Below, in pieces: positions 10,127 through 37,862 of a DNA stretch of 39,457 nucleotides (its first letter is position 1; each line of letters opens with the position of its first letter). The stretch is taken from positions 1-39,457 of IMG/VR virus record IMGVR_UViG_3300035698_004646, one strand, 5' to 3'. The position numbers and the translations under genes are program-made. The notes under the pieces were generated by a model that saw only the letters and a program-made list of their open reading frames with translations, was not told where the DNA came from and searched no databases. Source of the DNA: a virus.

Positions 10127-11443
10127 ATGAAGGTATTTTTGTTTATCAGTAAGACTGGGGATACATGGAGCATTGCAAAGAGGATTAAGGAAGAGGGTAA
10201 CAGAGCACTTGTTTATATTAACAGACCAGACTGCAGGGAAGTAGGTAATGGTTTGGTAGAGAAACATCCTGAGCAATCTATACTTGTTGATGAGCAAGGC
10301 GTAACGGATAAGGAAGCACTTGAGAGAGTGCTTGCGTGTAAACCAGACTGTATTATCTTCGACATGGTTGGGGAAGGGTTTGGTACTCTTGCAGATAAGC
10401 TTGGCGATAAGGGTTACAATGTAGTGGGTGCATCTGCCTGGGCTGACCAGATAGAACTTGACCGTCCTTACGGGACAAAGATTATGAAGCTGTATGGTGT
10501 CAACACGCCTAAAGAAAAGAAGTTCACCTCGTACGAGGACGCTATCCAGTATGTTCGGGATACTCGAAAAGCCTATGTCTATAAGCCGAATGGGAATCAA
10601 AGTACCTCAACGACCTACGTTTCCCAAGGTCCTGGTGATATGATTGGGATGCTCAACTACTACTCAGGTATCAAGGAAGAGTTTCTCCTGCAAGAGAAAG
10701 TTGAGGGAGTACTAGTTTCCTCTGAGCTATGGTTTAACGGAACGGATGTCGTTAGTGTTAATCATACCATGGAGGAAAAGAGTTTGTGTGAGGGTGGGCA
10801 CGGTCCTAAGGCTGGCTGTATGGGCTCTGTCGTATGGATTGGTTCAACCGCCTCTCGTCTCTACAAAGAAGGAGTAGGTCGCTTGGTACCTGCCCTCCGC
10901 AAACTTTCTTACAAAGGACCGATAGACTTGAACGCTATCGTCACGAAAGATAAGCTGTATGGACTGGAGTTCACCGCTAGGCTTGGCTCTGATGCACTCT
11001 TTGTGTTGCTTGAGATGTATAAAGATAGGGTGTGCGACCTCTTTTATGGTCTAGCTAATGGTTCCTTGAAAGAGATGAAGTTTCGTTCTGAGCTGGGGGT
11101 TGGCATTGATATAGCAGTTCCTCCATACCCACTTGATGTAGAACCAGACCTGTACAAGGGAGTGTTAATCCAAGGTCTTAACAAGAAGAACCTTAAACAT
11201 CTGTGGCTATATGATGTCTGCTATTCCAGTGGAGCTTACAAGGTCGCTGGGTGTGGAGGAGACATAGGAACAATCACTGCAAGGGGGGACAGTTTTAAAG
11301 GCTTCGCACCTGTCAGAGATGCTAAGAGGCGAGTACTCCGCACAATATCCAACCTCATAATTCCTGATATAATCTACAGGAGAGATATCGGGGATAGATT
11401 CTTTAAGGACAGCGGGAAACTGAAAGAATGGGGATGGATTTAG
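10127..11443 (+). CDS. ATP-grasp ligase, PurD-like
   Basis: A 438-residue protein with GAGGAG before the start. It shows ATP-grasp landmarks in PurD order: an N-terminal nucleotide-like fold (MKVFLFISKTGDTWSIAKRI), ATP lysine in VYKPNG (K153), LLQEKVEG (E190), a GHGPKAGCMGSV loop in place of PurD's TGGMG loop, and metal ligands in IDLNA (N269) and GLEFTARLG (E281). The C-terminal third is like PurD's last domain. PurD joins phosphoribosylamine to glycine; the true substrate here cannot be read from sequence. No other purine gene is nearby. It is the last gene of the virion operon, an unusual site for an enzyme. Confidence 0.65.
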   Translation: MKVFLFISKTGDTWSIAKRIKEEGNRALVYINRPDCREVGNGLVEKHPEQSILVDEQGVTDKEALERVLACKPDCIIFDMVGEGFGTLADKLGDKGYNVVGASAWADQIELDRPYGTKIMKLYGVNTPKEKKFTSYEDAIQYVRDTRKAYVYKPNGNQSTSTTYVSQGPGDMIGMLNYYSGIKEEFLLQEKVEGVLVSSELWFNGTDVVSVNHTMEEKSLCEGGHGPKAGCMGSVVWIGSTASRLYKEGVGRLVPALRKLSYKGPIDLNAIVTKDKLYGLEFTARLGSDALFVLLEMYKDRVCDLFYGLANGSLKEMKFRSELGVGIDIAVPPYPLDVEPDLYKGVLIQGLNKKNLKHLWLYDVCYSSGAYKVAGCGGDIGTITARGDSFKGFAPVRDAKRRVLRTISNLIIPDIIYRRDIGDRFFKDSGKLKEWGWI

Positions 11444-12651: not shown

Positions 12652-14957
12652 AAGTCGTCCTCCGTTATCTCTTTCATCGTGCCGTAGTTGCGTCCAAGTT
12701 GTATGTCTATAGGTACTGTTAACTGCTCCCTGCTAACCTCAACGGGGAACTCAAAGTAATGCTTCATGAACTTCCACAAGTGTACAACGTCCGTCTCCTC
12801 GGGTACTTGCAAAAGTATAGAGTCATGACATTGCATGAGTGGTTCCCACCCTACTGGGTAATTACCATACGCTCGGACTATACCCAGGTTAATCAAATCA
12901 TTTGTACAGGACTGAGGTACGTGAGCCACGCCTTCCCTTATCAAGTCTTGTCCCCATCTACCCATGAACAACCTCTTCCTACCGAAAGGAGAGGTCAGTA
13001 TTCTCATACGTCCTAGCTGGCTCTCTACTTCCTTGTGCCAAACCCTTATGCTTATAAAGGTAGAGTAGTACCTGTTCAGTACGTTCCGTGCTTCCTGGAT
13101 AGTAATGCCTGTGTTAGCAGCCAACGTCTTTTCTTTAATCATGTAGTTGGCAGCGTGACCTCCAGCTTTAGCTACTTGCCTTTGTTCCTTCTTAACCTCG
13201 CTCACGTGGCAACCGTACAGCATAGACGCAAAGTACTTGTGGATGTCCTGCCCAGAGTTGAAGAGCTTCTTGAGTGTACGGTCTCCTGATATCCAAGCAA
13301 CGAACCGAGCGTCCGACTGACTAAGGTCAGCGTTGACTAGTACCATACCTGGGTCAGCAATAAAGATACCCCTGACTAAAGGTCCTCGTGGTAGGTTCTG
13401 TAGGTTAGTACCACCCCCACTGCTGTAAGCCGTACTACTTAGACGACCAGTGACTGTACCAGTTATCTTGTATGTACAGCGCATGCGTTCGTCAGGGTGT
13501 ACCTCAGCTCGTATATACGTGCTCAACAGCTTCCTAGCTTTACGGATGTCAAGTATTAAACTGAACAGAGGACTGGGGAAGCTAGCAGCGATTTCATCTA
13601 TAGCTTTAGCGTCAGCAGTTAACGACCTCGTTCTAGGTTTGTACTTAGGTGGGTACTTCATTTCTTTGTAGAGGAACTCACACATCTGCTTAGGGCTAGC
13701 TACGTTTAGAGGGTGACCAACTGCTTTCTCTAACCGCATCTGCAAGTCCTCAATGTCCTTGTCTAGGTTAGCGTCTATCTCTGCCCTCTGCTTCATGTCA
13801 ATCAGTATACCCCTTCTCTGCATTTCCAGCAAGGGCTTAATTAACTTATGACTGTGTTCGTAGTAGAAGTCCTTGACGTTAAACTCAGTCATCTCTTTCT
13901 CAATTTCCTCAGCACACTCGAACGTGGTTACACAGTCTAAGCAGTTGTACGTCCACAGGTCGTCAGGCGTTGCACCTTTTGAAACCCCGTTAGCACCTAT
14001 CACACCCTTGTGGTAAGGGCGATTGGTGAAGATGGACGAGAGAAAGCCTAAGCTCTTCTTCAGCTCAGGGTAGACGGAGTGGAAGGCAATCATTGTGTCC
14101 ATGCCTAGGTTCTCTACATAGCAATTCCACAAGTCCATGATGACTGTCATATCAAACTGTGCGTTCTGTGCTATGAAGCTTATGTTCTTGTTAGCAAAGA
14201 GTTTACGCATGTTAAGGATAAGTGCGTGCTCTTCCTGTGCCGTATACCAGCTGTTCGTACCAAACATGATGGGGATGCAAATGGCATCTTGTTTACTCCA
14301 AGCGAAGCCCATGCAAAGTATATGCTTAGCAGGCACTGTTGTTTCAATGTCGAATGCTATCTTAGGTTGCTTGTGCAAGTGTAAGATAGTCCTCATTGCT
14401 TCCTCAAAGGACGGATTGATTATGAAGTTATCCTTGTAGTACCGCTTCATCTCAGGAAACTCACTCTCTTTCTTCGCCCTAGTTAAGTCCATGACGGCAG
14501 TAGGTCTCAACGTGTACTGTCGCATGATAGTGCCAGGGTGTACGAGAGGCATGACCTTAACCCCTCGGCAACCTAGTATCGAACCCCTCCAGTTAAGGAT
14601 ACCAGTCTCACCTGTTAAGGCGACAAGGGCTTCCTGACCGCAGGCAATTACAATATTAGGTTTATGCTCTGCAATTCTATCACGCATGCTTTTCTGTTGG
14701 TTAGCGAGATACGCGCCTGGCACCCGTTTTTGCTTGTCGTTATAGAGACATGCAAAGGTCTTCCCTTGAGGACATACTGGTACAATGTTGTCAAGATAGC
14801 ACTGGTCTCTATGTATTCCCGCTTGGATGAGTATTCCATTAAGTACTTGTCCAGCTCCTCCAACAAAAGGAGACTGTTGTCTAACCTCATTAGCTCCAGG
14901 AGCCTCTCCAATAATCCAGATTTTACTGCTTGGTTTTCCTTCACTCGGTACCCCCAT
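12612..14957 (-). CDS. Family-A DNA polymerase fused to a uracil-DNA glycosylase domain
   Basis: A 781-residue protein. Residues 15-145 are a family-4-type uracil-DNA glycosylase domain (GEAPGANE, SPFVGGAGQVL, LVHPGT). A DnaQ-like 3'-5' exonuclease follows (FDIETT near 203-207, AQNAQFD), then the Pol I palm and fingers: VNADLSQSDAR (motif A), R-x3-K-x7-Y (motif B) and CHDSIL (motif C). The ATG at 14957 has AGAAGG 8 nt upstream; ATG 14963 and GTG 14966 are closer to that site. The domain begins at its first motif, so the N-terminal iron-sulfur cysteines of family-4 glycosylases are missing. Motif C has HDS instead of HDE. Glycosylase-polymerase fusions are known in SPO1-type phages. Confidence 0.9.
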   Translation of the reverse strand: MGVPSEGKPSSKIWIIGEAPGANEVRQQSPFVGGAGQVLNGILIQAGIHRDQCYLDNIVPVCPQGKTFACLYNDKQKRVPGAYLANQQKSMRDRIAEHKPNIVIACGQEALVALTGETGILNWRGSILGCRGVKVMPLVHPGTIMRQYTLRPTAVMDLTRAKKESEFPEMKRYYKDNFIINPSFEEAMRTILHLHKQPKIAFDIETTVPAKHILCMGFAWSKQDAICIPIMFGTNSWYTAQEEHALILNMRKLFANKNISFIAQNAQFDMTVIMDLWNCYVENLGMDTMIAFHSVYPELKKSLGFLSSIFTNRPYHKGVIGANGVSKGATPDDLWTYNCLDCVTTFECAEEIEKEMTEFNVKDFYYEHSHKLIKPLLEMQRRGILIDMKQRAEIDANLDKDIEDLQMRLEKAVGHPLNVASPKQMCEFLYKEMKYPPKYKPRTRSLTADAKAIDEIAASFPSPLFSLILDIRKARKLLSTYIRAEVHPDERMRCTYKITGTVTGRLSSTAYSSGGGTNLQNLPRGPLVRGIFIADPGMVLVNADLSQSDARFVAWISGDRTLKKLFNSGQDIHKYFASMLYGCHVSEVKKEQRQVAKAGGHAANYMIKEKTLAANTGITIQEARNVLNRYYSTFISIRVWHKEVESQLGRMRILTSPFGRKRLFMGRWGQDLIREGVAHVPQSCTNDLINLGIVRAYGNYPVGWEPLMQCHDSILLQVPEETDVVHLWKFMKHYFEFPVEVSREQLTVPIDIQLGRNYGTMKEITEDDLCGSVREVGLMLT

Positions 14958-16209
14958 CAACATCACCTTCTTCCACGCTTAGTCGATTGCATATGTTTAC
15001 GTAGTACTTCTCATCAAGCTCTACTCCTTGTGCCTGTCTACTTGTTTCTTTTGCTGCCTGTAACGTAACCCCACTTCCTGCAAAAGGATCGAACACTGTT
15101 TCACCTGGTAGGCTAAGCAGTTTAATAAGCTCGCGCATGAGCTCTGCTGGCTTCTCGCTTGGATGGATTTTAGCACCGCCTGGGACACGCTTGATTGTAA
15201 ATATATCTCTGGGAGTACCTTCAAGCTTACGCTTTCCTTTGATGGCGTGGATGGCAACTTCGTAACTGTGGACGAAGCTGGTGGACTGAGAAGGGTAGCT
15301 GCCAGATCCTTTGTCCCAGATAATTGGGAGCTTCCAACAATCGAATCCATGTTTGCTAAGTATGCTTTGCAGATGCGGGACCTTATCAATGCCACAGAAG
15401 ATAAACAAGTGTCGGTCATTTTTGAGGATACGGTAGAACTGTTCAAATGCTTTATCAAGCATATCAAACGTCTCAAACTCTGAGTCGGTGTAGGTTGTTT
15501 GTTCATGCATCCTCCCAAATATATGTGAGTCTCCAATGTCTATTCCGTATGGAGGGTCGGTTAATATCAAGTCCACGCTCTCACTGTCCATCTTAGCCAT
15601 GACGTCAAGGCAGTTTCCGTGGGTAACGGAAGGGTGGTTAACAATACCATGTTGCTTTAACCTCTTAGCCAGCTCCCTTTCAAGTAAGTTCTGCTGTTTC
15701 TTCTTAAGCTTCTTGAAGGCAGTACTCTTGCTCTTCTCTTTCATCAGCTCGGGGAAAGCTTTCATCCCCCTTGCAAGTGCTATGTCCATGCTAACTGTAC
15801 CCACACTCTCGGACAATGCCTCTGCAGTCTGCTTCATACCCCAACCGCTTGTTTCTTTTCCCTTAACGGCTGTACCGTGCAAATCCTGCTTCAACTTATG
15901 GAGTTGGTGCTTGGCACTTACTTCCTCCTGCCAGGTGAATTGCTTCCTTTGGATGTTCTCTTCCAGCTCAATCTCTTTCTTCTCCATAGGGCTGAGGTCT
16001 TTCATGTACTTAACCTCTACGTCCTTCAACCCAAGGGCGGTGCAAGCTCGGAGTCTACGCTCACCTGCAATCAATTCATTGTTCTCGTCGAGGACGATTG
16101 GTTCAATCAACCCATAGCGAGCAATGGAGGCTTGCATTTCCTCTATCCCCTCGAACTTGGTACGTATCCTGTCCCCTACAATAACATCTTTTAGTTTAAT
16201 CTTAGGCAT
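14941..16209 (-). CDS. ParB-like domain fused to DNA methyltransferase
   Basis: A 422-residue protein with AAAGGT upstream. Residues 1-100 are a ParB/sulfiredoxin-type domain (GLIEPIVL, then NELIAGERRLRA). A Lys-rich linker follows, then a beta-class N6-adenine/N4-cytosine methylase: TDPPYGIDIG (DPPY at 218-221) before DPFAGSGVT (374-382), with HPSEKP between them. It probably methylates phage DNA to evade host restriction or to mark an origin. DPPY suggests adenine or N4-cytosine; the target site is unknown. Its end overlaps the polymerase start by 17 nt. Such fusions are common in Gram-positive phages. Confidence 0.85.
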   Translation of the reverse strand: MPKIKLKDVIVGDRIRTKFEGIEEMQASIARYGLIEPIVLDENNELIAGERRLRACTALGLKDVEVKYMKDLSPMEKKEIELEENIQRKQFTWQEEVSAKHQLHKLKQDLHGTAVKGKETSGWGMKQTAEALSESVGTVSMDIALARGMKAFPELMKEKSKSTAFKKLKKKQQNLLERELAKRLKQHGIVNHPSVTHGNCLDVMAKMDSESVDLILTDPPYGIDIGDSHIFGRMHEQTTYTDSEFETFDMLDKAFEQFYRILKNDRHLFIFCGIDKVPHLQSILSKHGFDCWKLPIIWDKGSGSYPSQSTSFVHSYEVAIHAIKGKRKLEGTPRDIFTIKRVPGGAKIHPSEKPAELMRELIKLLSLPGETVFDPFAGSGVTLQAAKETSRQAQGVELDEKYYVNICNRLSVEEGDVDGGTE

Positions 16210-19879: not shown

Positions 19880-20226
19880 CGCTGCTCCTGGTAAAGAACT
19901 TCAATAAAACGGGTAACAAACTCATGTAACAGTAGTCTGGTTTTTTCTTTCTTATTTTTCTCTAGCACTGGTGCTTTCGCAATAGGTTCTAACCGCCCAC
20001 CCGAGTACGCCCTGTAAAGGGGAGCGTAGAAGTCTACGAAGGACTGGAAGCCGAAAGCTAGCATAACAAGCCTCTCATTAACACTATTAGCTCGCTCCCC
20101 TTTACTCCACCTAATCAAGTTGTTAATCTCCAGGTCATGCATCTTAGCAAAATCGTGGATGTCCAAACGCCTTAGCGTAAGGTAGTATTCAATAGCTTTA
20201 CTCAACATTGATTTTTTTTCTGTCAT
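19876..20226 (-). CDS. Possible helix-turn-helix protein
   Basis: A 116-residue basic protein. Residues 10-45 (LSKAIEYYLTLRRLDIHDFA then MHDLEINNLIRWSKGERA) read like a Cro/XRE-type helix-turn-helix with an unusual spacing; the rest is helical and ends in a charged tail. Its start lies 29 nt inside the end of the radical SAM gene, so translation is coupled. It is the only visible DNA-binding-protein candidate in the early operon other than the ParB domain and might bind the repeated operators. Confidence 0.45.
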   Translation of the reverse strand: MTEKKSMLSKAIEYYLTLRRLDIHDFAKMHDLEINNLIRWSKGERANSVNERLVMLAFGFQSFVDFYAPLYRAYSGGRLEPIAKAPVLEKNKKEKTRLLLHEFVTRFIEVLYQEQR

Positions 20227-21064
20227 TTGTTTTCCCTTTCTTTTTAATAGTTACTGAGCAATATCCTTCTTCCTGTAACCTATTCGTCTTGAGCTTAATG
20301 TCGCATGGGTTACACGTTCCACAGTTCTTACAGCTTGTAAACTTTGGTATCTTCACCTCCTCATCCAATATATTCCCGTAGGCGTGTTCCCCTGCATAGA
20401 GGTCACGGTGACACCTGTACAAGTACCCATCGGGTGCAATTAACAATTCGTTTCCCTGACAAAGTACCTCGTGTTTCCTCCCAAAGGTGGCAGCAGGGTA
20501 TTTGAATGTCCCGTGGTCTTTATCTAGGAACTCTTTTTCCCTGTAGTCAATGCCTTCTAGCTCACACGCTTCTTTAAAGAATAGATTCCTACCCCTGTTA
20601 TCTGCCTTTGCTAATCCCCATACACCTATACTATATCCTAGGCGCTTTAGTGTCTTGACTGTTTCAAATAAGTCTTTAGGATTAGTGTTGCTGTGTAGGC
20701 TGAAACGGATAGAAGCGTAGGGAGCACCCCTCTCAAAGTAAAGGGGGTCTAGGTACTTGACAAACTTATCAACATCAAACATACCATTGGTTAGGATGTC
20801 TATGCTTTGGTTAGTCATCGCTAACTCCTCAGCTATGTGATAGAAGCCTTTGAGACTAGTAGGTTCACCCCCTTGTAACGTGATAGGGAGGTCAAACCGT
20901 GTAGGTATCCTTTGCAGTGCCTTTTCCATAGACCTGTAAGGCATGGGAGTAACCCTCTTGAGCTTCCCCATTGTGTTAAGGCAGTAGGAACACCCCATAC
21001 TGCAGTCGAAAGTCAAGAACACTCCTATATAGTTTATTCGCTTAGGTAACTTAATCGATTTCAT
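20198..21064 (-). CDS. Radical SAM enzyme with C-terminal cysteine cluster domain
   Basis: A 288-residue protein. C21-x3-C25-x2-C28 (FDCSMGCSYC) binds the SAM [4Fe-4S] cluster; LQGGEPTS (63-70) is the SAM-binding GGE motif. The C-terminal cysteines C202, C218, C245, C248, C251, C254 and C269 suggest one or two auxiliary clusters, as in SPASM or twitch domains, which act on peptides or sugars. Its start overlaps the E1 beta-like gene by 14 nt and its own ribosome site is weak (AAAGGA, 11 nt), so the two are translated together. The substrate is unknown. Confidence 0.8.
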   Translation of the reverse strand: MKSIKLPKRINYIGVFLTFDCSMGCSYCLNTMGKLKRVTPMPYRSMEKALQRIPTRFDLPITLQGGEPTSLKGFYHIAEELAMTNQSIDILTNGMFDVDKFVKYLDPLYFERGAPYASIRFSLHSNTNPKDLFETVKTLKRLGYSIGVWGLAKADNRGRNLFFKEACELEGIDYREKEFLDKDHGTFKYPAATFGRKHEVLCQGNELLIAPDGYLYRCHRDLYAGEHAYGNILDEEVKIPKFTSCKNCGTCNPCDIKLKTNRLQEEGYCSVTIKKKGKTNDRKKINVE

Positions 21065-21563
21065 TTAGGTAATCGTCCTTTCTCTCGACAACTAGAACTG
21101 GCTCTTCTAGGTCATATGCCAGTCGATAACTGTCCTTGTTGTACCCCAGTACCTCCATATACTTATGGAATAGGTAGCTGTAGTCCTGTTTATGTTGCAG
21201 ACCAACGTCGAACTCTTTATCCTGCGTCCCCACAATGGAGCGGATGATAATGGGAAGGTTGAATTGATGACCGCTCATCTTTGGCAAAAGACACATGTGG
21301 TTTACGATGGCATCCATCGCTAGTAACATGAAATCCATCCGTTGAAAAACGATCACGGGACGGAACCCCTCCAATGCAAGTCCTATAGCCGAGCTCGCTA
21401 TCAGGTTCTCCACAATGGGCATCTCCAAACACATGTTCAAGGAGACTTTCGACAACGTCCCGTAGATTCGTTCCGCATTGATTATGTTTTCTCCCAGGAA
21501 TACTACTTTTTCTTGTTCCGCTAGCCATGACATCTCCTCCGTTATTGATTGTTGGTAGTTCAT
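21051..21563 (-). CDS. Split ThDP enzyme, Pyr (E1 beta N-terminal-like) subunit
   Basis: A 170-residue protein equal to the pyrimidine-binding half of an E1 beta/transketolase-type enzyme: VVFLGENI, then MPIVENLIASSAIGLALEGF with the catalytic Glu52, then RPVIVF and the DF...A.D.IVNH pattern. Normal E1 beta (about 325 aa) has a second, transketolase-C domain, which is missing here. It would need the PP-domain partner encoded at 22493-23110 to make an active site. It starts in an ATGA overlap with the previous gene and ends inside the radical SAM gene. Confidence 0.7.
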   Translation of the reverse strand: MNYQQSITEEMSWLAEQEKVVFLGENIINAERIYGTLSKVSLNMCLEMPIVENLIASSAIGLALEGFRPVIVFQRMDFMLLAMDAIVNHMCLLPKMSGHQFNLPIIIRSIVGTQDKEFDVGLQHKQDYSYLFHKYMEVLGYNKDSYRLAYDLEEPVLVVERKDDYLNEID

Positions 21564-21763
21564 TTTTTGCTCCAGTTCGCTCTGATTTTCTTGATTAGAC
21601 GTATTGCGTCCATTGCGTATATCTTATTTATAGGCTGAAGTCGCACGTCTTCCAAGCCTTGCCTTAGGTGATGTTCAATCATACTAAAGCGTCCTTTGTT
21701 GTAGTTATGCATACTTGCTTCTTTTTGTTTCTCTGTCTGTGTCGTATGTGTCCTTCGTCGCAT
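21560..21763 (-). CDS. Small basic protein upstream of the ThDP Pyr subunit
   Basis: A 67-residue protein that starts after a strong AAAGGAGGTAGT site. It has a disordered basic N-terminus, then two helices (MIEHHLRQGLEDVRLQP, MDAIRLIKKIRANW). It ends in an ATGA overlap with the Pyr subunit gene. No family is recognised; it could be a scaffold or assembly partner of the split enzyme, by position only. Confidence 0.5.
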   Translation of the reverse strand: MRRRTHTTQTEKQKEASMHNYNKGRFSMIEHHLRQGLEDVRLQPINKIYAMDAIRLIKKIRANWSKK

Positions 21764-21776
21764 ACTACCTCCTTTG

Positions 21777-22010
21777 TTATAAAGGTTTACTTAAATCACA
21801 ATCTTCCAGGTATTCATAAATCTGCGCGTCGATGGCAAGTTGCTCCTGCGTCCCTTCATAGTCGTACTCGATGCCATCTATCAAGTCAAGACTTATGCCT
21901 CTGTTACCATCTGCATCTGCACCATAGTTCGGGTCATTTTCCATAGTGACCTTCACCTCCAGCTCATCTCCATTATCCAGCGTTACTCGTACGTCCTTTA
22001 TCCATTTCAT
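21777..22010 (-). CDS. Small acidic hypothetical protein
   Basis: A 77-residue, strongly acidic protein (about 24 Asp and Glu) starting with two strands (KWIKDVRVTLDNGDELEVKV), which resembles a small beta-rich domain. The ribosome site is GGAG, 5 nt before the start, which overlaps the upstream stop (ATGA). Between two ThDP subunit genes, but with no recognisable enzyme motif. It could be a DNA mimic or a host-takeover protein. Confidence 0.5.
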   Translation of the reverse strand: MKWIKDVRVTLDNGDELEVKVTMENDPNYGADADGNRGISLDLIDGIEYDYEGTQEQLAIDAQIYEYLEDCDLSKPL

Positions 22011-22198
22011 AGTAGCTCCATTAAGTAATCAGGCTCCAGTCCAAAATGCTGAGCGCATATATCGTCAGCTTCTGATAGCCTTCCAGTTGCTAGTAAGTTA
22101 TTCAAATCTTTCTTTGCTGCTTCAATCTTGTCGTCAGCTTCTGCTTCTGTAATACCATCTCTCTCCATGATTATTTCCTTGATTGTATCCAGTTCCAT
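22007..22198 (-). CDS. Small acidic helical protein
   Basis: A 63-residue helical protein (MERDGITEAEADDKIEAAKK, then DLNNLLATGRLSEADDIC). The run with GITEAEADDKI and the closing FGLEPDYLMELL have a familiar small phage-protein look; many phages carry such 60-70 aa acidic genes with unknown roles. AGGAG lies 7 nt before the start and it overlaps the next gene. Confidence 0.55.
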   Translation of the reverse strand: MELDTIKEIIMERDGITEAEADDKIEAAKKDLNNLLATGRLSEADDICAQHFGLEPDYLMELL

Positions 22199-22211
22199 CG
22201 TCTCACTCCTT

Positions 22212-22469
22212 TCATTTATTTATCCATAGGTAAACCATGTCACTTTTAAATGCTGCACGTATTCTTAGTCCATGTTTCTTTGCTTTATTGCGTAGATAAC
22301 TAACTTGATGTGTTTTTAGCTCTGACCTATGAAAGGATATTGTTTGTGTTGCGTGGATGGACTTTAAAGCCTTAATAAGGTCGGTGTAAAATCCAGCATT
22401 ATCTTCTAAGTCCTCGGGTTTTGTTACTACAGTGAATTGATTATTGTTGTTTGCTGTTTCCATGTTCAT
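22212..22469 (-). CDS. Small hypothetical protein, possible nucleic-acid binder
   Basis: An 85-residue protein. The start may be 22469 or the ATG at 22463; both lie below AAAGGA and GAGG. The C-terminal half is basic with a helix-strand plan (SYLRNKAKKHGLRIRAAFK then MVYLWINK) that resembles small phage proteins with DNA-binding-like folds. It lies between the acidic mini-genes and the ThDP PP subunit. Confidence 0.45.
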   Translation of the reverse strand: MNMETANNNNQFTVVTKPEDLEDNAGFYTDLIKALKSIHATQTISFHRSELKTHQVSYLRNKAKKHGLRIRAAFKSDMVYLWINK

Positions 22470-22492
22470 CTTCCTCGTTTCCTTTCGTTTAG

Positions 22493-23110
22493 TTACATTG
22501 ACACATGTTCCCCTATCCCCACGTGAGGATAAGTAGCTTTATAATTATAACGGAGGATGTTGCTTGCCACGACAGGTGCATGAACCACCCACCGTTCCTT
22601 CTTCGAAGTCTCCACCGCTCGGTCGTTGTCCTCTATCACCCAAGTTACTGGCAATCTTCGTCCGTTTGAGAAGCGGACAGCTTCTAAAAAGTGTCCAGTA
22701 TCTTCTCCCCCATCTCCAACGAAACACCACACCATTCCCCCCTGCTTTTTTTTCTTCAAGGCAAGTGCTAAACCTACTGCAATACCTGCCGTTCCCCCAA
22801 TTATAGCACTCGTTAGGAATCTCTTCTGGACGTTCATAATGTGCATGCTTCTTCCCAAACCCCCACATACGCCTGTCTCCTTTCCCAATATCTCGTCCAT
22901 CAGCCCAACTGTGTCACCTGTATGGAGGAGGTAATGATAATGATTACGGTGAGTGCTTAGCACCCAGTCTTTCTTACTATCCACGCTCTCGAAGAGGGCA
23001 ATTAGCTCATCTTCGTTCCCACCGCTTAGGTGTACAGGACAGTTAATCTTACCTTCCTTAAAGAGCTTAGCTACATTAGCTTCAAACTCAATCAGTGCTT
23101 GCTTTTTCAT
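22493..23110 (-). CDS. Split ThDP enzyme, PP (E1 alpha-like) subunit
   Basis: A 205-residue protein with the E1 alpha sequence of 2-oxoacid dehydrogenases: STHRNHYHYLLHTGD (52-66), ILGKETGVCGGLGRSMHI (74-91), GIAVGLALAL, then the ThDP/Mg motif GDG (132-134) ending in EDND (160-163, ligand N162). It stops about 40 residues after this motif; full E1 alpha continues to 320-360 aa, so the C-terminal third is absent. Sizes of 205 and 170 aa recall the two subunits of sulfopyruvate decarboxylase, although the motifs are E1-like. No E2 or E3 gene is seen. Start by TAATG coupling. Confidence 0.75.
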   Translation of the reverse strand: MKKQALIEFEANVAKLFKEGKINCPVHLSGGNEDELIALFESVDSKKDWVLSTHRNHYHYLLHTGDTVGLMDEILGKETGVCGGLGRSMHIMNVQKRFLTSAIIGGTAGIAVGLALALKKKKQGGMVWCFVGDGGEDTGHFLEAVRFSNGRRLPVTWVIEDNDRAVETSKKERWVVHAPVVASNILRYNYKATYPHVGIGEHVSM

Positions 23111-23523
23111 TACTTTCCGCCCTCAAGGATAGTTTCCTGCTCAATCTTTTGCGCTTCTTCCCAAGCTTGATTCTCCCTGTACCTTTTAACGGCAAGCAGT
23201 ATTAACATTCTTTCCGTGGATGAGAGGTTACTTTTCTTTTCCTGGATTAACTCATACTCTTTCATGATAGCTTCTTCATCATTCAGCAACTTCTCGAAAG
23301 GTGTTAGTTCCTTAGGTGCTTGCTGGACTAGTGACTTCTCAGCAAACGTCTTTCCAGCTTCTTCTCGACGTTCCCTTTTTTCCCCTTTCAACACACGTGC
23401 ACTCTTTAACATAGCATTCTCCTTTTCTATTTCATTCACTCGTTTCTCAAGAGCTTGCAACTCCCTCAGTAGGTAGTCACAGCTTTGTATCCATCCCCAT
23501 GTTCCATCAAATTCATACTCCAT
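23110..23523 (-). CDS. Coiled-coil protein coupled to the ThDP PP subunit
   Basis: A 137-residue protein. Residues 15-50 form a clear coiled coil (LLRELQALEKRVNEIEKENA), followed by a charged linker and a helical C-terminus (NLSSTERMLILLAVKRYREN). Coupled by TAATG at both ends, to the DUF6165-like gene before it and the PP subunit after it; AGGAG lies 5 nt before the start. It could be the scaffold of the cassette. No named family. Confidence 0.55.
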   Translation of the reverse strand: MEYEFDGTWGWIQSCDYLLRELQALEKRVNEIEKENAMLKSARVLKGEKRERREEAGKTFAEKSLVQQAPKELTPFEKLLNDEEAIMKEYELIQEKKSNLSSTERMLILLAVKRYRENQAWEEAQKIEQETILEGGK

Positions 23524-23921
23524 TACTGACTCCTATGCTTAGTTTTAAACTCCCTGAAGCCCTTCTCAGAGAGGCGATTGATTTCATTCTTATAGCTGAT
23601 CCTCTTCTTATTTATATCCCGTACCTCAATCATCATATTACGAACGTCCTCGGCTGGGAACAACTCAGGGTGATCAGCCTTACGGAAATCATTCTCCCGC
23701 ACCCATACCATATGATTGGTTTGAGCTAGCCTGATGATTGCTGAGATAAAGGCACCGTCATAACCAGCTTCGGTTAATGCCTCAGTTAGGTATGTGAATT
23801 CTTGGATGGCATCTTCTGCTCCGTGATACATCTTGAGGGCAAGGATAGATATCCTGTCAAGTACATCCCCTAAGCTCATTCTCGGCATACCAGTTAAGTC
23901 TGTTCCTTTAAACGTATCCAT
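23523..23921 (-). CDS. DUF6165-like helical protein
   Basis: A 132-residue protein. The start at 23921 is preferred because GGGGAG lies just upstream; the earlier TTG and ATG lie in or against the palindrome and have no site. SLGDVLDRISILALKMYH and, later, VRDINKKRISYKNEINRL resemble the GE.lDKlSIL..K pattern of DUF6165, which is found beside glycosyltransferases and surface-polysaccharide genes. If right, it links the ThDP/radical-SAM cassette to sugar chemistry. The assignment is by memory of a pattern and is uncertain. Confidence 0.45.
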   Translation of the reverse strand: MDTFKGTDLTGMPRMSLGDVLDRISILALKMYHGAEDAIQEFTYLTEALTEAGYDGAFISAIIRLAQTNHMVWVRENDFRKADHPELFPAEDVRNMMIEVRDINKKRISYKNEINRLSEKGFREFKTKHRSQ

Positions 23922-23933
23922 GGCTCTCCCCAT

Positions 23934-23948
23934 TTTCAAAAGTTGAAA
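23934..23948. promoter_or_regulatory. Palindrome TTTCAA-N3-TTGAAA, copy 4
   Basis: An exact copy with spacer AAG. It directly abuts the stop codon of the upstream leftward gene (stop at 23949-23951) and lies 12 nt before the chosen start at 23921, beside GGGGAG. It is at the head of the DUF6165-like, coiled-coil and PP-subunit genes. Confidence 0.7.
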
Positions 23949-24696: not shown

Positions 24697-25770
24697 TTAG
24701 ATAAAGTTAATATGGTCAGGCATGTTTAAGTAATTCCAGATGAACTCGTTTGTACTGTCATGTCGCCAACACCCTTGACAGTCCTTGTGAACGTCAAACT
24801 CTCTACGCATGTACTTAATAACTTCCCAATACCATCCACTATCAAGTATTTGCTTCAAGCCCATGTGTTCAAGGTCTCCATAACAATACTTAGGGTCATT
24901 GAATAGATAGCCACATGGGTAACACTTACCATTCCCACTGATTTGGAAGAGGAGAGGACAGTCAACGCAATGGTCATACTTACGCTCGCCTTTGGCATCA
25001 ATCCTCTCCCACTTAGGAATTATCTTCGTAACGTCGTTGCTCATATCCGCAGCATCATTAAGTGGTGTTAAGACATCCCGATTAGAGTACCACTCAAGGT
25101 TAAAAGGTTTCATTTCTGCGCATCCTGGATCACTAAACTGTTTGATGACCATATAATCCAGCTTATTGTCAATAGCGAAGTGTGCCTCGGGGATAACGTA
25201 GGGAAGGGCATCAGGAATAAGTACCATTTGCAAGCCCAGCGTGGTGTTGGAGAGAAGGTCTTTCTTCATAGCTACCATCTTCTTAATATTGGCTTGCACA
25301 GAGTACCACTTCGGGACGCCATGTATGGTCTTATAACCCTCTTCCCCAACTGCTGAAAGGTTAAAGCGTACCCATGTGCAAGTGGACAACATAATACTCA
25401 TTAACTCGTCACTCATCTCAATGCCATTCGTTGCAATACCTATGTTTACACCACCTACAGCTAGCATATTAAGTGCTTTAGGAAGGTCAGGGTGAAGCGT
25501 ATTCTCCCCATCCCCTGTAAACGTGACGCTCTTGATACCACATTTAACTACGTCATAGCAGAACTGAAGAAGTGCATCAGATGACCACATAGTTGGTGCA
25601 GGCTTCTGAAATATCCCATAGCAGTAAGAACACTTAGCATTACATGCTTTAGTGATAGCACAATCTATGTGCAGAGGGTATACTCTCTTACCATCTCTGA
25701 AGTGCTCATGCACCTTATCCATATGCCAAAGCAGTTTATTCCCATCAAAGTTCCATTTATCGTTTTTCAT
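24697..25770 (-). CDS. Radical SAM enzyme with SPASM-like C-terminus
   Basis: A 357-residue protein; the start at 25770 has GAGGAG upstream. C43-x3-C47-x2-C50 (ACNAKCSYC) is the SAM cluster site, FTGDGENTLHPDL the GGE-like motif, and there is an auxiliary set of Cys in CVDCPLL, GKCYPCGYL, KYCYGD and DCQGCWRH that fits a SPASM domain. SPASM enzymes modify peptides, proteins or sugars. It lies 15-20 nt from a palindrome and is the first gene after it. A different enzyme from the one at 20198, though both may act on one pathway. The substrate cannot be read. Confidence 0.8.
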   Translation of the reverse strand: MKNDKWNFDGNKLLWHMDKVHEHFRDGKRVYPLHIDCAITKACNAKCSYCYGIFQKPAPTMWSSDALLQFCYDVVKCGIKSVTFTGDGENTLHPDLPKALNMLAVGGVNIGIATNGIEMSDELMSIMLSTCTWVRFNLSAVGEEGYKTIHGVPKWYSVQANIKKMVAMKKDLLSNTTLGLQMVLIPDALPYVIPEAHFAIDNKLDYMVIKQFSDPGCAEMKPFNLEWYSNRDVLTPLNDAADMSNDVTKIIPKWERIDAKGERKYDHCVDCPLLFQISGNGKCYPCGYLFNDPKYCYGDLEHMGLKQILDSGWYWEVIKYMRREFDVHKDCQGCWRHDSTNEFIWNYLNMPDHINFI

Positions 25771-25789
25771 TCTTACTCCTCTCATTCAT

Positions 25790-35051: not shown

Positions 35052-36038
35052 ATGTCAGCAGCATTAACGGAGTATTTAAACACGTTGTATACGAGCACCT
35101 GGGTTAAGCGTCGACCAGGGATTATCGATCAGGTATTCGAAGACAACAAACTACTCATGGTACTTCAGAGTAAGGGCATGATTAAGTTTGAGGAAACTAG
35201 TGGACGTAGACTTGAAATTCCACTGCGTATCAGGAAGAACGACACTGCGAAGTTTTTCTCAAAAGGTGCAACTTTCACCATCTCGGATTTCGACCCGCTG
35301 ACTGTTGCCTACGATACCTACAAGAATTTGGGAGACCAGATTGTTCGGTATTGGGAGGACGATAAAATTAATGGTTCCAGTATGACTGCGCATTTGAAGA
35401 TGATGAAGGCGAAGATTGACACTGTACGGGATACCCTTCAGGAAAAGGTAGAGGATTCACTCTGGACGAATCAGGGCGGTTCTAGTTCTCTTGCCTATAA
35501 CGGTTTACCATACTTGATTGACGCTAGTCCTTCTGATAATACTGTCGTGCATGGTATTAACCAAAGTACTGCTGTAGACCAAGCAGGTAATTACTACTGG
35601 CGGAACCAGCAGAAGACAAGCTCAGGTGCGTTTTCTGTTTATGGTGAGTCAGATATGACTAACTTCCTTAACACGTGTCAGCGTTGGGGAAAGATTGACC
35701 TTCTTATTAGTGACCAGACAACTCATGAACTCGGTGAGGAAGAAGCTCTCGAGCGCGTGCAGGTTGTTAATAAAGAAGCAGTAAGCTTAGGGCTTGACCA
35801 TATTACGTTTAAAGGTCGTATGTGGATGTGGTCTCCTAAGTGTACAACTGGACGTACTTATTTTATTGACCGACGCCATCTTAGTTTTATCATCGATGGT
35901 AGCGTGAACATGACGATGGGTCCTTGGAAGAAAATTCCTAACCAGTTTGAAGATGTTGTAACGCAGATTGTTCAGCGTGGTAATGTTATTGTAGATAAAC
36001 GTCGATGCCACGGTGTATTGACTGCGCAGGCTGCGTAA
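35052..36038 (+). CDS. Major capsid protein
   Basis: A 328-residue protein with GGAGG before the start. It is a full-length HK97-fold-type coat protein with an N-terminal arm (MSAALTEYLNTLYTSTWVKR), E-loop-like strands (RRLEIPLRIRKNDTAKFFSK), the GATFTISDFDPLTVAYDTYKN stretch, and P-domain/A-domain strands (IVQRGNVIVDKRRCHGVLTA). I infer the class from position after the scaffold and from the 'GRRLEIPL' and 'NVIVDKRRCHGVL' patterns seen in such coat proteins. Confidence 0.8.
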   Translation: MSAALTEYLNTLYTSTWVKRRPGIIDQVFEDNKLLMVLQSKGMIKFEETSGRRLEIPLRIRKNDTAKFFSKGATFTISDFDPLTVAYDTYKNLGDQIVRYWEDDKINGSSMTAHLKMMKAKIDTVRDTLQEKVEDSLWTNQGGSSSLAYNGLPYLIDASPSDNTVVHGINQSTAVDQAGNYYWRNQQKTSSGAFSVYGESDMTNFLNTCQRWGKIDLLISDQTTHELGEEEALERVQVVNKEAVSLGLDHITFKGRMWMWSPKCTTGRTYFIDRRHLSFIIDGSVNMTMGPWKKIPNQFEDVVTQIVQRGNVIVDKRRCHGVLTAQAA

Positions 36039-36112: not shown

Positions 36113-36874
36113 ATGAGTAGGATTTTAGGATTTAATCAAGGTGAAGTAGAAGATAGTAGCAAAGTTAACTGGAGGGGTGACCAGTCTGTTGTTCCTCAGG
36201 GAGGTCAGGGTATTTATGATTCAGCTGCCCTAGCATTAACCGACTTGGGAAGCAGAAAAGTTGTAGGGGATAGAGTATTTCGCTATGCCAAAGCTGGTGC
36301 TGCAGTTGCTGCAGGGGATTTACTGGAGTCTAAAGCAGCGAATCTTAATAGTGTTACGGCAGGGGATGCTGATCCTGCTGCAGGTAAGACGTTTACCTTT
36401 TACGCTGCTACAGCGGTTGATAAAGACGCTTATGCGGAAGGTTATCTTATTTCGCAGAGTGGAACCGCTGGTAACATGGGTCATATGTACCGTGTTAAAA
36501 GCAACGCTGCTATTACAGCAACGACTAACGGAGCTTTACTTTTGTATGACGCTCTGGAGAAGTTAGTTAACGTCACGGATGAGTGGGCTCTTACGCAGAA
36601 CCTTTATGCTAATGTGCAACAGCAGACCGCTAATGCTGGCGTTCCCATTGGTATTGCTCCTATAGCAGTATCAAGTGGAGACTGCTTTTGGCTGCAGACC
36701 TATGGTCCTGCCAGCGTAAAAGGTGGAGCATGTACAATAGGTAAGAAAGTTATTGCAGGAGCTACGGGCGCAGTTGGTCCAGCTGTTTCAACGACTGGTG
36801 CTAGTCTGGGATATGCTATTATGACCATCACAGCTAGTCAACGTGGATTGGCGTTTATTACAATTGCACCTTAA
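36113..36874 (+). CDS. Head decoration or accessory protein
   Basis: A 253-residue protein, Ala/Gly/Thr/Val-rich and low in charge (GDRVFRYAKAGAAVAAGDLL, VKGGACTIGKKVIAGATGAV), with AGGAGGGG before the start. It follows the coat gene and has the composition of capsid decoration or head-stabilising proteins. GYAIMTITASQRGLAFITIAP is the last strand pair. No exact family is recalled. Confidence 0.6.
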   Translation: MSRILGFNQGEVEDSSKVNWRGDQSVVPQGGQGIYDSAALALTDLGSRKVVGDRVFRYAKAGAAVAAGDLLESKAANLNSVTAGDADPAAGKTFTFYAATAVDKDAYAEGYLISQSGTAGNMGHMYRVKSNAAITATTNGALLLYDALEKLVNVTDEWALTQNLYANVQQQTANAGVPIGIAPIAVSSGDCFWLQTYGPASVKGGACTIGKKVIAGATGAVGPAVSTTGASLGYAIMTITASQRGLAFITIAP

Positions 36875-36953: not shown

Positions 36954-37862
36954 ATGACAGAGGAAAACACTGTGACTGAGACCCAGGAAATACCCAAGAT
37001 ACTAATTGGCGTTCCAATCTTAAACTGGTCACACGAATTTGCAATGAGCTTCTTACAGTTCTGGACGGACTTGATTACATACAGTGAGACTAAGAGAAAG
37101 TTTCATGTGGGTTATCACTTCGTGTATAGGAAACCTGTTCATATCGCTGAGGAAGAACTGGTACAGTATGCTATTAACGCAGGGTGTACTCATGTTCTTA
37201 TGATGGATGACGATATCTACGACTTGAACATTAATCATTTCCTGAAGTTACTTGATGATGACAAAGACGTTGTTGGTGGTGTGATGCATACAGGTGGCTT
37301 TCCGTTTGCTATGTGTGCCTTTCGACGGTATGATGTTGATAAGGCAGTAGCTGAGCAACCCACGCTAAAAGGACCAGCACGATTATATGAAGTCCCGCCT
37401 GAACAGAGAATAGGTATACAGAAGGTAGACTTAATGGCTTTCTGCTTTACCCTATTCAAAACAAGCTTATTCAAAGATATTCCAAAACCATGGTTTAAGT
37501 GCGACTCTACAGCTCCAACTGATAGTTGTTTTGCAGACTCCCTACTAGAGCTAGGCAAAAGTTTTTATGTTGACTTTGATGTGTACGTTAATCATCGTGG
37601 TATCACGAAGGAGAACAGACACTTACACGCTCAGCTTGGTTTGTTCAACGCTCAACAAAAGCAAACAGGGAATGTAATCACCTTGACTCAGGAAGAGATG
37701 CAGAGACACGAAGCTTACATGTCGCTTAAACTTAAGGAAGCAGAGGACAAAATTAAAGAACAAGCTACCTTACAAACAACCTTCTATGATAAGAAGGGGG
37801 ATGGAAAGCTAGCACACAAAGTGGAGGTTCAAGATGAGCTTAAAGAGCAATCTGATAAATAA
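36954..37862 (+). CDS. GT-A-type glycosyltransferase in the head module
   Basis: A 302-residue protein. The first domain reads like a GT-A nucleotide-sugar transferase: KILIGVPILNWSHEFAMSFL, THVLMMDDDIYDLNI (D85-D87, the DxD metal site), GGVMHTGGFPFAMCAFRRYD and YVNHRGI. The last 70 residues are a coiled coil (LKEAEDKIKEQATLQTTF). Its place between decoration and lysozyme genes suggests it modifies a virion or cell-surface target; the sugar is unknown. AAAAAGGAG precedes the start. No signal peptide, so it acts inside the cell. Confidence 0.7.
   Translation: MTEENTVTETQEIPKILIGVPILNWSHEFAMSFLQFWTDLITYSETKRKFHVGYHFVYRKPVHIAEEELVQYAINAGCTHVLMMDDDIYDLNINHFLKLLDDDKDVVGGVMHTGGFPFAMCAFRRYDVDKAVAEQPTLKGPARLYEVPPEQRIGIQKVDLMAFCFTLFKTSLFKDIPKPWFKCDSTAPTDSCFADSLLELGKSFYVDFDVYVNHRGITKENRHLHAQLGLFNAQQKQTGNVITLTQEEMQRHEAYMSLKLKEAEDKIKEQATLQTTFYDKKGDGKLAHKVEVQDELKEQSDK

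Follow-up and report, generated by a model that had tools for sequence, protein, structure and literature searches.

Enzymes of the alphaKADH2 group, which use thiamine diphosphate (ThDP) and are of the E1 type, branch keto-sugars with pyruvate in the aldgamycin, kosinostatin and kibdelomycin (KbDH-alpha/beta) pathways, requiring a carbonyl acceptor and acting outside any 2-oxoacid dehydrogenase complex (PMC12247030). For the lipopolysaccharide (LPS) sugar yersiniose A, part of a surface glycan, YerE carries out a similar ThDP-dependent reaction in which pyruvate supplies an acetyl unit to a keto-sugar (PMC12247030); it differs in belonging to the decarboxylase superfamily and not to the E1 type. 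Here we describe a pair of E1-like genes that adjoin radical S-adenosylmethionine (SAM) genes in the virus record IMGVR_UViG_3300035698_004646, a tailed-phage sequence of 39,457 bases (hereafter the window). We refer to the encoded proteins as alpha and beta, to the enzyme they would form as mini-E1, and to the two radical SAM proteins as rSAM1, whose gene overlaps that of beta, and rSAM2.

The phage locus resembles the alphaKADH2 systems in combining an E1-type alpha and beta pair with what context and superfamily suggest is a sugar pathway. By description rather than by sequence comparison, it differs from them in that its proteins lack the C-terminal parts, occur split or fused, are mostly viral, and are accompanied by an exchangeable alcohol dehydrogenase or radical SAM partner. 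The alphaKADH2 enzymes appear to be a precedent for mini-E1 that is exact in superfamily, and together with YerE they suggest a model in which a dehydrogenase generates a carbonyl that receives a two-carbon unit from mini-E1, with a glycosyltransferase (GT) then transferring the product. We give a probability of roughly 0.5 to the proposal that mini-E1, the radical SAM enzymes and a GT-like enzyme form a phage pathway that makes and transfers an unusual sugar, perhaps onto the capsid. In the openly licensed literature we found no paper that links phages with radical SAM enzymes, thiamine or E1, and GTs.

A minimal E1-type enzyme family in phages

The E1_dh match of alpha covers profile positions 2-171 of 300, and its profile aligns to human pyruvate dehydrogenase (PDH) E1-alpha over residues 45-210 of 365 only, ending at the 'TSVER' region; the protein itself closes with a conserved PHxG tail. 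Beta matches the NCBIfam E1-beta models over residues 4-132 only and Transket_pyr slightly below the cut-off (1.2e-5), aligning to the pyrimidine (PYR) domain alone, with the transketolase-C part absent. An earlier note on this DNA, made from the letters alone, had described both proteins as E1-like, with the ThDP motif and catalytic Glu kept and the C-terminal parts missing, and these matches bear the description out. By sequence the nearest solved structures are PDH E1 alpha and beta, which share the ThDP motif, catalytic Glu and His but, unlike the phage proteins, retain a C-terminal domain in beta, continue in alpha beyond the cofactor motif, and work with E2 and E3. With the C-terminal parts absent, and with no E2, E3 or lipoyl domain found among the approximately 30 window open reading frames (ORFs) scanned (not every ORF was covered), the pair falls outside the E1 components of 2-oxoacid dehydrogenase complexes, and ordinary activity of that kind is unlikely, as had been proposed. 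Alpha and beta are, as judged from these alignments, probably an E1-type ThDP enzyme cut down to its two cofactor-binding domains.

Relatives were collected with gene calls made mechanically, mostly from metagenomic contigs, many of them incomplete. A single-sequence alpha query against viral contigs gave no match, and relatives emerged only with alignment queries, which recovered, for alpha and beta alike, more than 300 viral loci, and at least 14 loci in bacterial and archaeal genomes. Removal of redundancy left 92 clusters, with median lengths of 207 amino acids for alpha, 174 for beta and 400 for the fused form, and all but two clusters have the short form, the exceptions being distant outgroup clusters with full-length E1 subunits. 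The family conserves GDG...N, the catalytic Glu (P-[IVL]-x-E-N), an active-site His and an R-x-H loop: GDG is present in 89 of the 92 clusters and P-x-x-E-[NE] in 76 of 79, the ThDP motifs (GDG...N and the PYR-domain Glu) are invariant or nearly so in alignments A1, A2 and A5, and the catalytic Glu and active-site His of beta are invariant in alignment A2. Almost every locus of sufficient length carries both subunits or their fusion, which goes against the refuting case named earlier, that the two never co-occur in relatives. The change between split and fused forms accounts for two events on the ThDP tree.

Chance occurrence can be rejected because independent viral contigs repeatedly show the alpha and beta genes in company with a stable module, and a truncation artefact or a decaying E1 can be rejected because the short form is the rule (90/92). 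Mini-E1 is a coherent family and not a relic. It is large and mostly viral, and is currently labelled 'transketolase central region' or 'unknown'. Alpha and beta both match a single PHROG, phrog_34187 (405 amino acids), whose members include the 'transketolase central region-containing protein' of cyanophages S-SM2 and P-TIM68; there the two halves are fused into one protein, encoded within LPS-type cassettes with a zinc-dependent alcohol dehydrogenase (Zn-ADH) in place of the radical SAM enzyme, and the deposited name misses the E1 relationship.

The AlphaFold2 model of one fused relative (L140) is confident (pLDDT 89, pTM 0.91); compared at the level of overall fold, it superposes on transketolase across both domains with TMq 0.61-0.66, and its beta half superposes on E1-beta at about 2 A. 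A minimal two-domain architecture, split or fused, is shared by sulfopyruvate and phosphonopyruvate decarboxylases, which are ThDP enzymes of another superfamily; neither turned up in the family searches. Contigs attributed to metagenome-assembled genomes (MAGs) of Nanoarchaeota, Deltaproteobacteria and Desulfobacterales (L165, L167, L168, L170) likewise carry sets of alpha, beta and rSAM2; these contigs may be cellular or binned viral sequence.

A radical SAM enzyme and an alcohol dehydrogenase exchange beside the ThDP gene

The earlier note had linked mini-E1 to the radical SAM gene that overlaps beta by 14 nt (21051-21064). The overlap and the association with radical SAM chemistry both stand, but another radical SAM enzyme is the more widespread partner of mini-E1: rSAM2, which had been overlooked, occurs in 36 of 92 clusters of a larger census, as against 17 of 84 for rSAM1 in a first census. 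All 17 of the rSAM1 clusters are of the split type, and none has a Zn-ADH. The closest relatives (L002-L009) keep rSAM2, the 138-residue protein encoded next to the module, alpha, beta and rSAM1, in one case (L008) in the consecutive order alpha-beta-rSAM1-rSAM2-138-residue protein-GT.

In every other cluster with a recognised partner, a Zn-ADH is found where rSAM2 would stand. When same-strand neighbours within six genes of the ThDP gene were counted over the 92 clusters of the larger census, 45 had only Zn-ADH, 36 only rSAM2, none both and 11 neither. The first census had given corresponding counts of 37, 36, 1 and 10 over 84 clusters (Fisher 2.6e-13, a value that is not independent evidence), and in the sole cluster with both (L171) the radical SAM gene lies several genes off on the opposite strand. 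The dehydrogenase partner is usually directly adjacent to the ThDP gene, often overlapping it or within 20 nt (36 junctions of Zn-ADH with the fused form).

The ThDP tree requires four changes between Zn-ADH and rSAM2, and these run in both directions: split enzymes with Zn-ADH (L051, L067, L138/L273) lie inside an rSAM2 clade, and a fused enzyme with rSAM2 (L038) lies inside a Zn-ADH clade. Moreover, in a syntenic set consisting of head protease, major capsid protein, GT2, GT9-like and ThDP genes, the replacement of rSAM2 by Zn-ADH is the sole exchange. Because the two are exchanged both ways and within one syntenic set, we infer that rSAM2 and Zn-ADH do the same job, the conversion of an alcohol to a carbonyl. 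Such an exchange would place the radical step before the ThDP step; the earlier suggestion that the two enzymes work jointly is retained, but its order, with the radical step following the ThDP step, would be reversed.

The sequence of rSAM2 is compatible with this role. Its relatives conserve CX3CX2C and a C-terminal auxiliary Cys pattern in 45 of 45 cases, and its AlphaFold2 model has a pLDDT of 91.8. Profile and fold searches return anSME, SuiB, SkfB, BlsE, DesII and BtrN, a list that includes sugar enzymes (DesII, BlsE) as well as alcohol oxidisers (BtrN, anSME). BtrN is the twitch-type radical SAM dehydrogenase of butirosin formation, which performs the two-electron oxidation of a cyclitol alcohol; it matches rSAM2 through the twitch domain (1.3e-14) and in the four-Cys auxiliary pattern, whereas rSAM2 is longer (about 360 residues) and by fold search lies nearer to DesII and SuiB. 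On the strength of these relatives and of the mutual exclusion with Zn-ADH, rSAM2 may be a BtrN-like radical sugar dehydrogenase. In rSAM1, CX3CX2C and five further Cys are conserved (alignment A11).

Several rSAM2 genes (L092:2753-4786; also L002, L004 and L013) carry a LAGLIDADG intein directly before the third Cys of CX3CX2C (Intein_splicing 6.7e-8, LAGLIDADG_3 2.3e-11), a position in the Fe-S motif that is typical for catalytic-site insertion. A B12-binding radical SAM enzyme lies between the 138-residue gene and alpha at L092:7302-8660, and like enzymes are found near ThDP genes in other clusters, including the Nanoarchaeota MAG contig L170.

Sugar genes and a glycosyltransferase-like gene accompany the ThDP enzyme

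Next in the cassettes with Zn-ADH comes a pfkB kinase whose closest family is heptose-7-phosphate kinase (5.5e-50, with the next family at 1.8e-16), together with an HldE-C-type nucleotidyltransferase, epimerases, cupins and GTs of families 2, 9, 10 and 11. On contig L170, alpha, beta and two rSAM2 genes are joined by a fused nucleotidyltransferase-kinase, identified from its sequence. Given these neighbours, the sugar produced is most likely heptose-like and in activated form. The earlier note had left the product as a modified sugar, base or peptide; context supports a sugar or glycan and makes the other two less favoured. The label 'GT9' was discarded for neighbour families 4 and 9, which have a GLGD-type motif only, whose combined profile has no PDB match and most of whose records are missed by PF01075; the L036-type neighbour is the sole confirmed GT9. 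A sialyltransferase-like protein (phrog_4603, 1.8e-32) is encoded 5' of the Zn-ADH and fused ThDP genes at L025:6404-7090, and its family, c34, recurs by head genes in the L036/L132 type.

The window also encodes a GT-like protein, likewise overlooked at first, between the major head protein and an SU10-type adaptor. It is homologous to a GT encoded 3' of rSAM2 in freshwater phages (hhalign 96.3%, 1.5e-9), and its family adjoins the cluster alpha-beta-rSAM1-rSAM2, with or without the 138-residue gene, in five phages (L341, L342, L345, L346, L347). In dozens of contigs the family is found in the head operon, with the order of major capsid protein, the gene at window position 36113, GT and adaptor preserved. 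An MDDD motif is invariant at what would be the DxD motif of a putative GT-A enzyme, and the profile matches are weak, to Anp1 in 4 of 11 members and to a PHROG glycosyltransferase in 5 of 11. The GT-like gene and rSAM2 both belong to the system. In the L083/L051 and L036/L132 types, GT and ThDP genes directly follow the major head protein, so that GT or ThDP genes stand by head genes in three gene-order types. Because of this proximity, virion glycosylation is the leading candidate, and DNA or the host surface would be alternative targets. The 253-residue protein encoded at 36113-36874 on the plus strand, whose gene invariably separates those of the major head protein and the GT-like protein, is a candidate substrate or decoration protein.

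A proposed pathway and its alternatives

From the families, motifs, recurrent linkage, dehydrogenase exclusion, sugar context and GT linkage, we infer the order of steps, donor, acceptor sugar, target and form of the product as follows. rSAM2, or Zn-ADH in many relatives, would oxidise the alcohol of a sugar, plausibly of heptose type, to a carbonyl. Mini-E1, with alpha as the pyrophosphate (PP) domain, beta as the PYR domain and the active site between them, would decarboxylate a 2-oxoacid such as pyruvate and ligate the bound two-carbon carbanion to this carbonyl, giving a branched or chain-extended sugar. In the phage group of the window, rSAM1 and the 138-residue protein may contribute a further step, and the GT-like enzyme, whose gene lies next to that of the major head protein, would attach the finished sugar, most likely to a protein of the virion.

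A number of points weigh against this pathway. Kinship among the clusters inflates the exclusion count, most of which is explained by co-inheritance, and with only four independent changes the independent-pairs sign test is non-significant (p about 0.125-0.25). The conserved E1 motifs would fit decarboxylation or ketol cleavage as well as carboligation, and the pathway assigns no particular step to rSAM1. Phages of the window type lack the kinase, nucleotidyltransferase and Zn-ADH, so the heptose link derives from relatives; the GT-like family gave no match against the PDB, its GT fold being weakly supported; and one 40-kb record, possibly a fragment, has the GT family and no alpha.

Ketol cleavage leads to the rival that we consider least improbable, though still unlikely, in which a transketolase-like enzyme passes a two-carbon ketol unit from one sugar phosphate to another, or removes it from an oxidised sugar, making or shortening a heptose-type sugar. 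The fused model has transketolase as its best match over both domains, and the heptose-kinase and nucleotidyltransferase neighbours would also suit such chemistry; by sequence, however, the proteins are nearest to E1 alpha and beta, and a transketolase-like reaction alone fails to account for the strict need of an oxidising partner. Somewhat less probable again is that the same chemistry serves a glycosylated, hypermodified base of the phage DNA, built by replication-region genes. In the window the ThDP and radical SAM genes do lie within a replication block (DNA polymerase, exonuclease, Sak4-like annealing protein), and freshwater phages place them between RecT/RusA-type genes and a GT. Yet the scanned window ORFs yielded no recognisable enzyme for nucleotide hydroxymethylation or base activation, the window and dozens of its relatives have the GT-like gene in their head operon, and other lineages have whole ThDP modules beside head genes.

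It seems improbable that a phage peptide or virion protein is the substrate of the radical SAM enzymes and that mini-E1 then modifies the resulting side-chain aldehyde or ketone. rSAM2 does resemble peptide maturases, a further point against the proposed pathway: the profiles of both radical SAM proteins match SuiB, SkfB, CteB, PqqE and anSME, and anSME, which converts a side-chain alcohol or thiol to an aldehyde, offers a parallel. No precursor of the ribosomally synthesised and post-translationally modified peptide type was recognised, although no search was aimed at precursors; sugar genes turn up with the module in one lineage after another, and a partner exchangeable with Zn-ADH would fit a substrate that is a small molecule. 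We give hardly any credence to the view that these genes are functionless pieces of host metabolism: for cyanophage LPS genes, Sullivan et al. (2010) left undecided whether they are functional or stuffer DNA (PMC3037559), but here catalytic residues, translational coupling and gene order are conserved in diverse phages that range in size from about 40 kb to several hundred kb, and the intein sits exactly in the Fe-S motif of rSAM2.

Beyond the sugar pathway proposed for the window, we tentatively suggest, with less confidence, that phages possess their own class of minimal E1-type carboligases, which would make branched or extended sugars for virion glycosylation and for which radical SAM and Zn-ADH enzymes would be interchangeable in the same alcohol oxidation. 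A large, mostly viral family would then make new sugars with minimal ThDP enzymes, and the purpose of the cyanophage LPS cassettes would become directly testable. The exchange of rSAM2 and Zn-ADH would be a second natural case of radical and hydride-transfer dehydrogenases sharing one job, besides the butirosin/neomycin pair, in which NeoA is the neomycin member, and would offer a way to assign unknown radical SAM enzymes. A carboligase of 170 + 205 residues could also serve biocatalysis.

Gene layout of the window

The window encodes a terminase, portal, major head protein, DNA polymerase, exonuclease and Sak4-like annealing protein, among others, with the alpha, beta and rSAM1 genes and their neighbours at 20198-23939 on the minus strand (Table 1).

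Table 1. Features of the window that relate to the proposed pathway.
Feature	Coordinates	Strand	Evidence or remark
Mini-E1 alpha, 205 aa; predicted PP domain of ThDP enzyme	22493..23110	-	Pfam E1_dh 4.5e-22; GDG + N motif
Mini-E1 beta, 170 aa; predicted PYR domain, without transketolase-C domain	21051..21563	-	NCBIfam E1-beta 7.5e-17
rSAM1, 288 aa; radical SAM enzyme	20198..21064	-	Radical_SAM 1.9e-8
rSAM2; radical SAM enzyme with four-Cys auxiliary (twitch-type) domain	24697..25785	-	Radical_SAM 3.6e-12
Small conserved module protein, 138 aa; weakly DUF4254-like	23523..23939	-	Kept in 10/84 clusters
Coiled-coil protein between the 138-aa gene and alpha	23110..23523	-	Without family match
Four small ORFs between beta and alpha	21560..22469	-	No Pfam match for the three tested
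Glycosyltransferase-like protein, MDDDIYD motif	36954..37862	+	Head operon, between major head protein and adaptor
Major head protein	35052..36038	+	phrog_9953 major head protein 5.4e-25

Of the two genes that had been noted on the other side of alpha, the one for the 138-residue protein is a conserved neighbour, found beside alpha or rSAM2 in the clusters that keep it, whereas the coiled-coil gene corresponds to none of the neighbours that relatives conserve and is probably a passenger. The former had been called DUF6165-like, a label that does not hold: none of 10 members matches that family at E up to 1, and 9 of the 10 match DUF4254 weakly, the window member falling below the cut-off. Between alpha and beta, relatives have other small ORFs or none, and in L008 and L022 the two genes overlap directly.

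Elsewhere in the window, an ATP-grasp-like protein (GARS_A 1.2e-8) is encoded at 10127-11443 on the plus strand, just 3' of a structural-region gene for 1050 amino acids, an unusual site for such an enzyme. At 14941-16209 on the minus strand, a ParB N-terminal domain is fused to an N6/N4 DNA methyltransferase, an arrangement that relatives keep.

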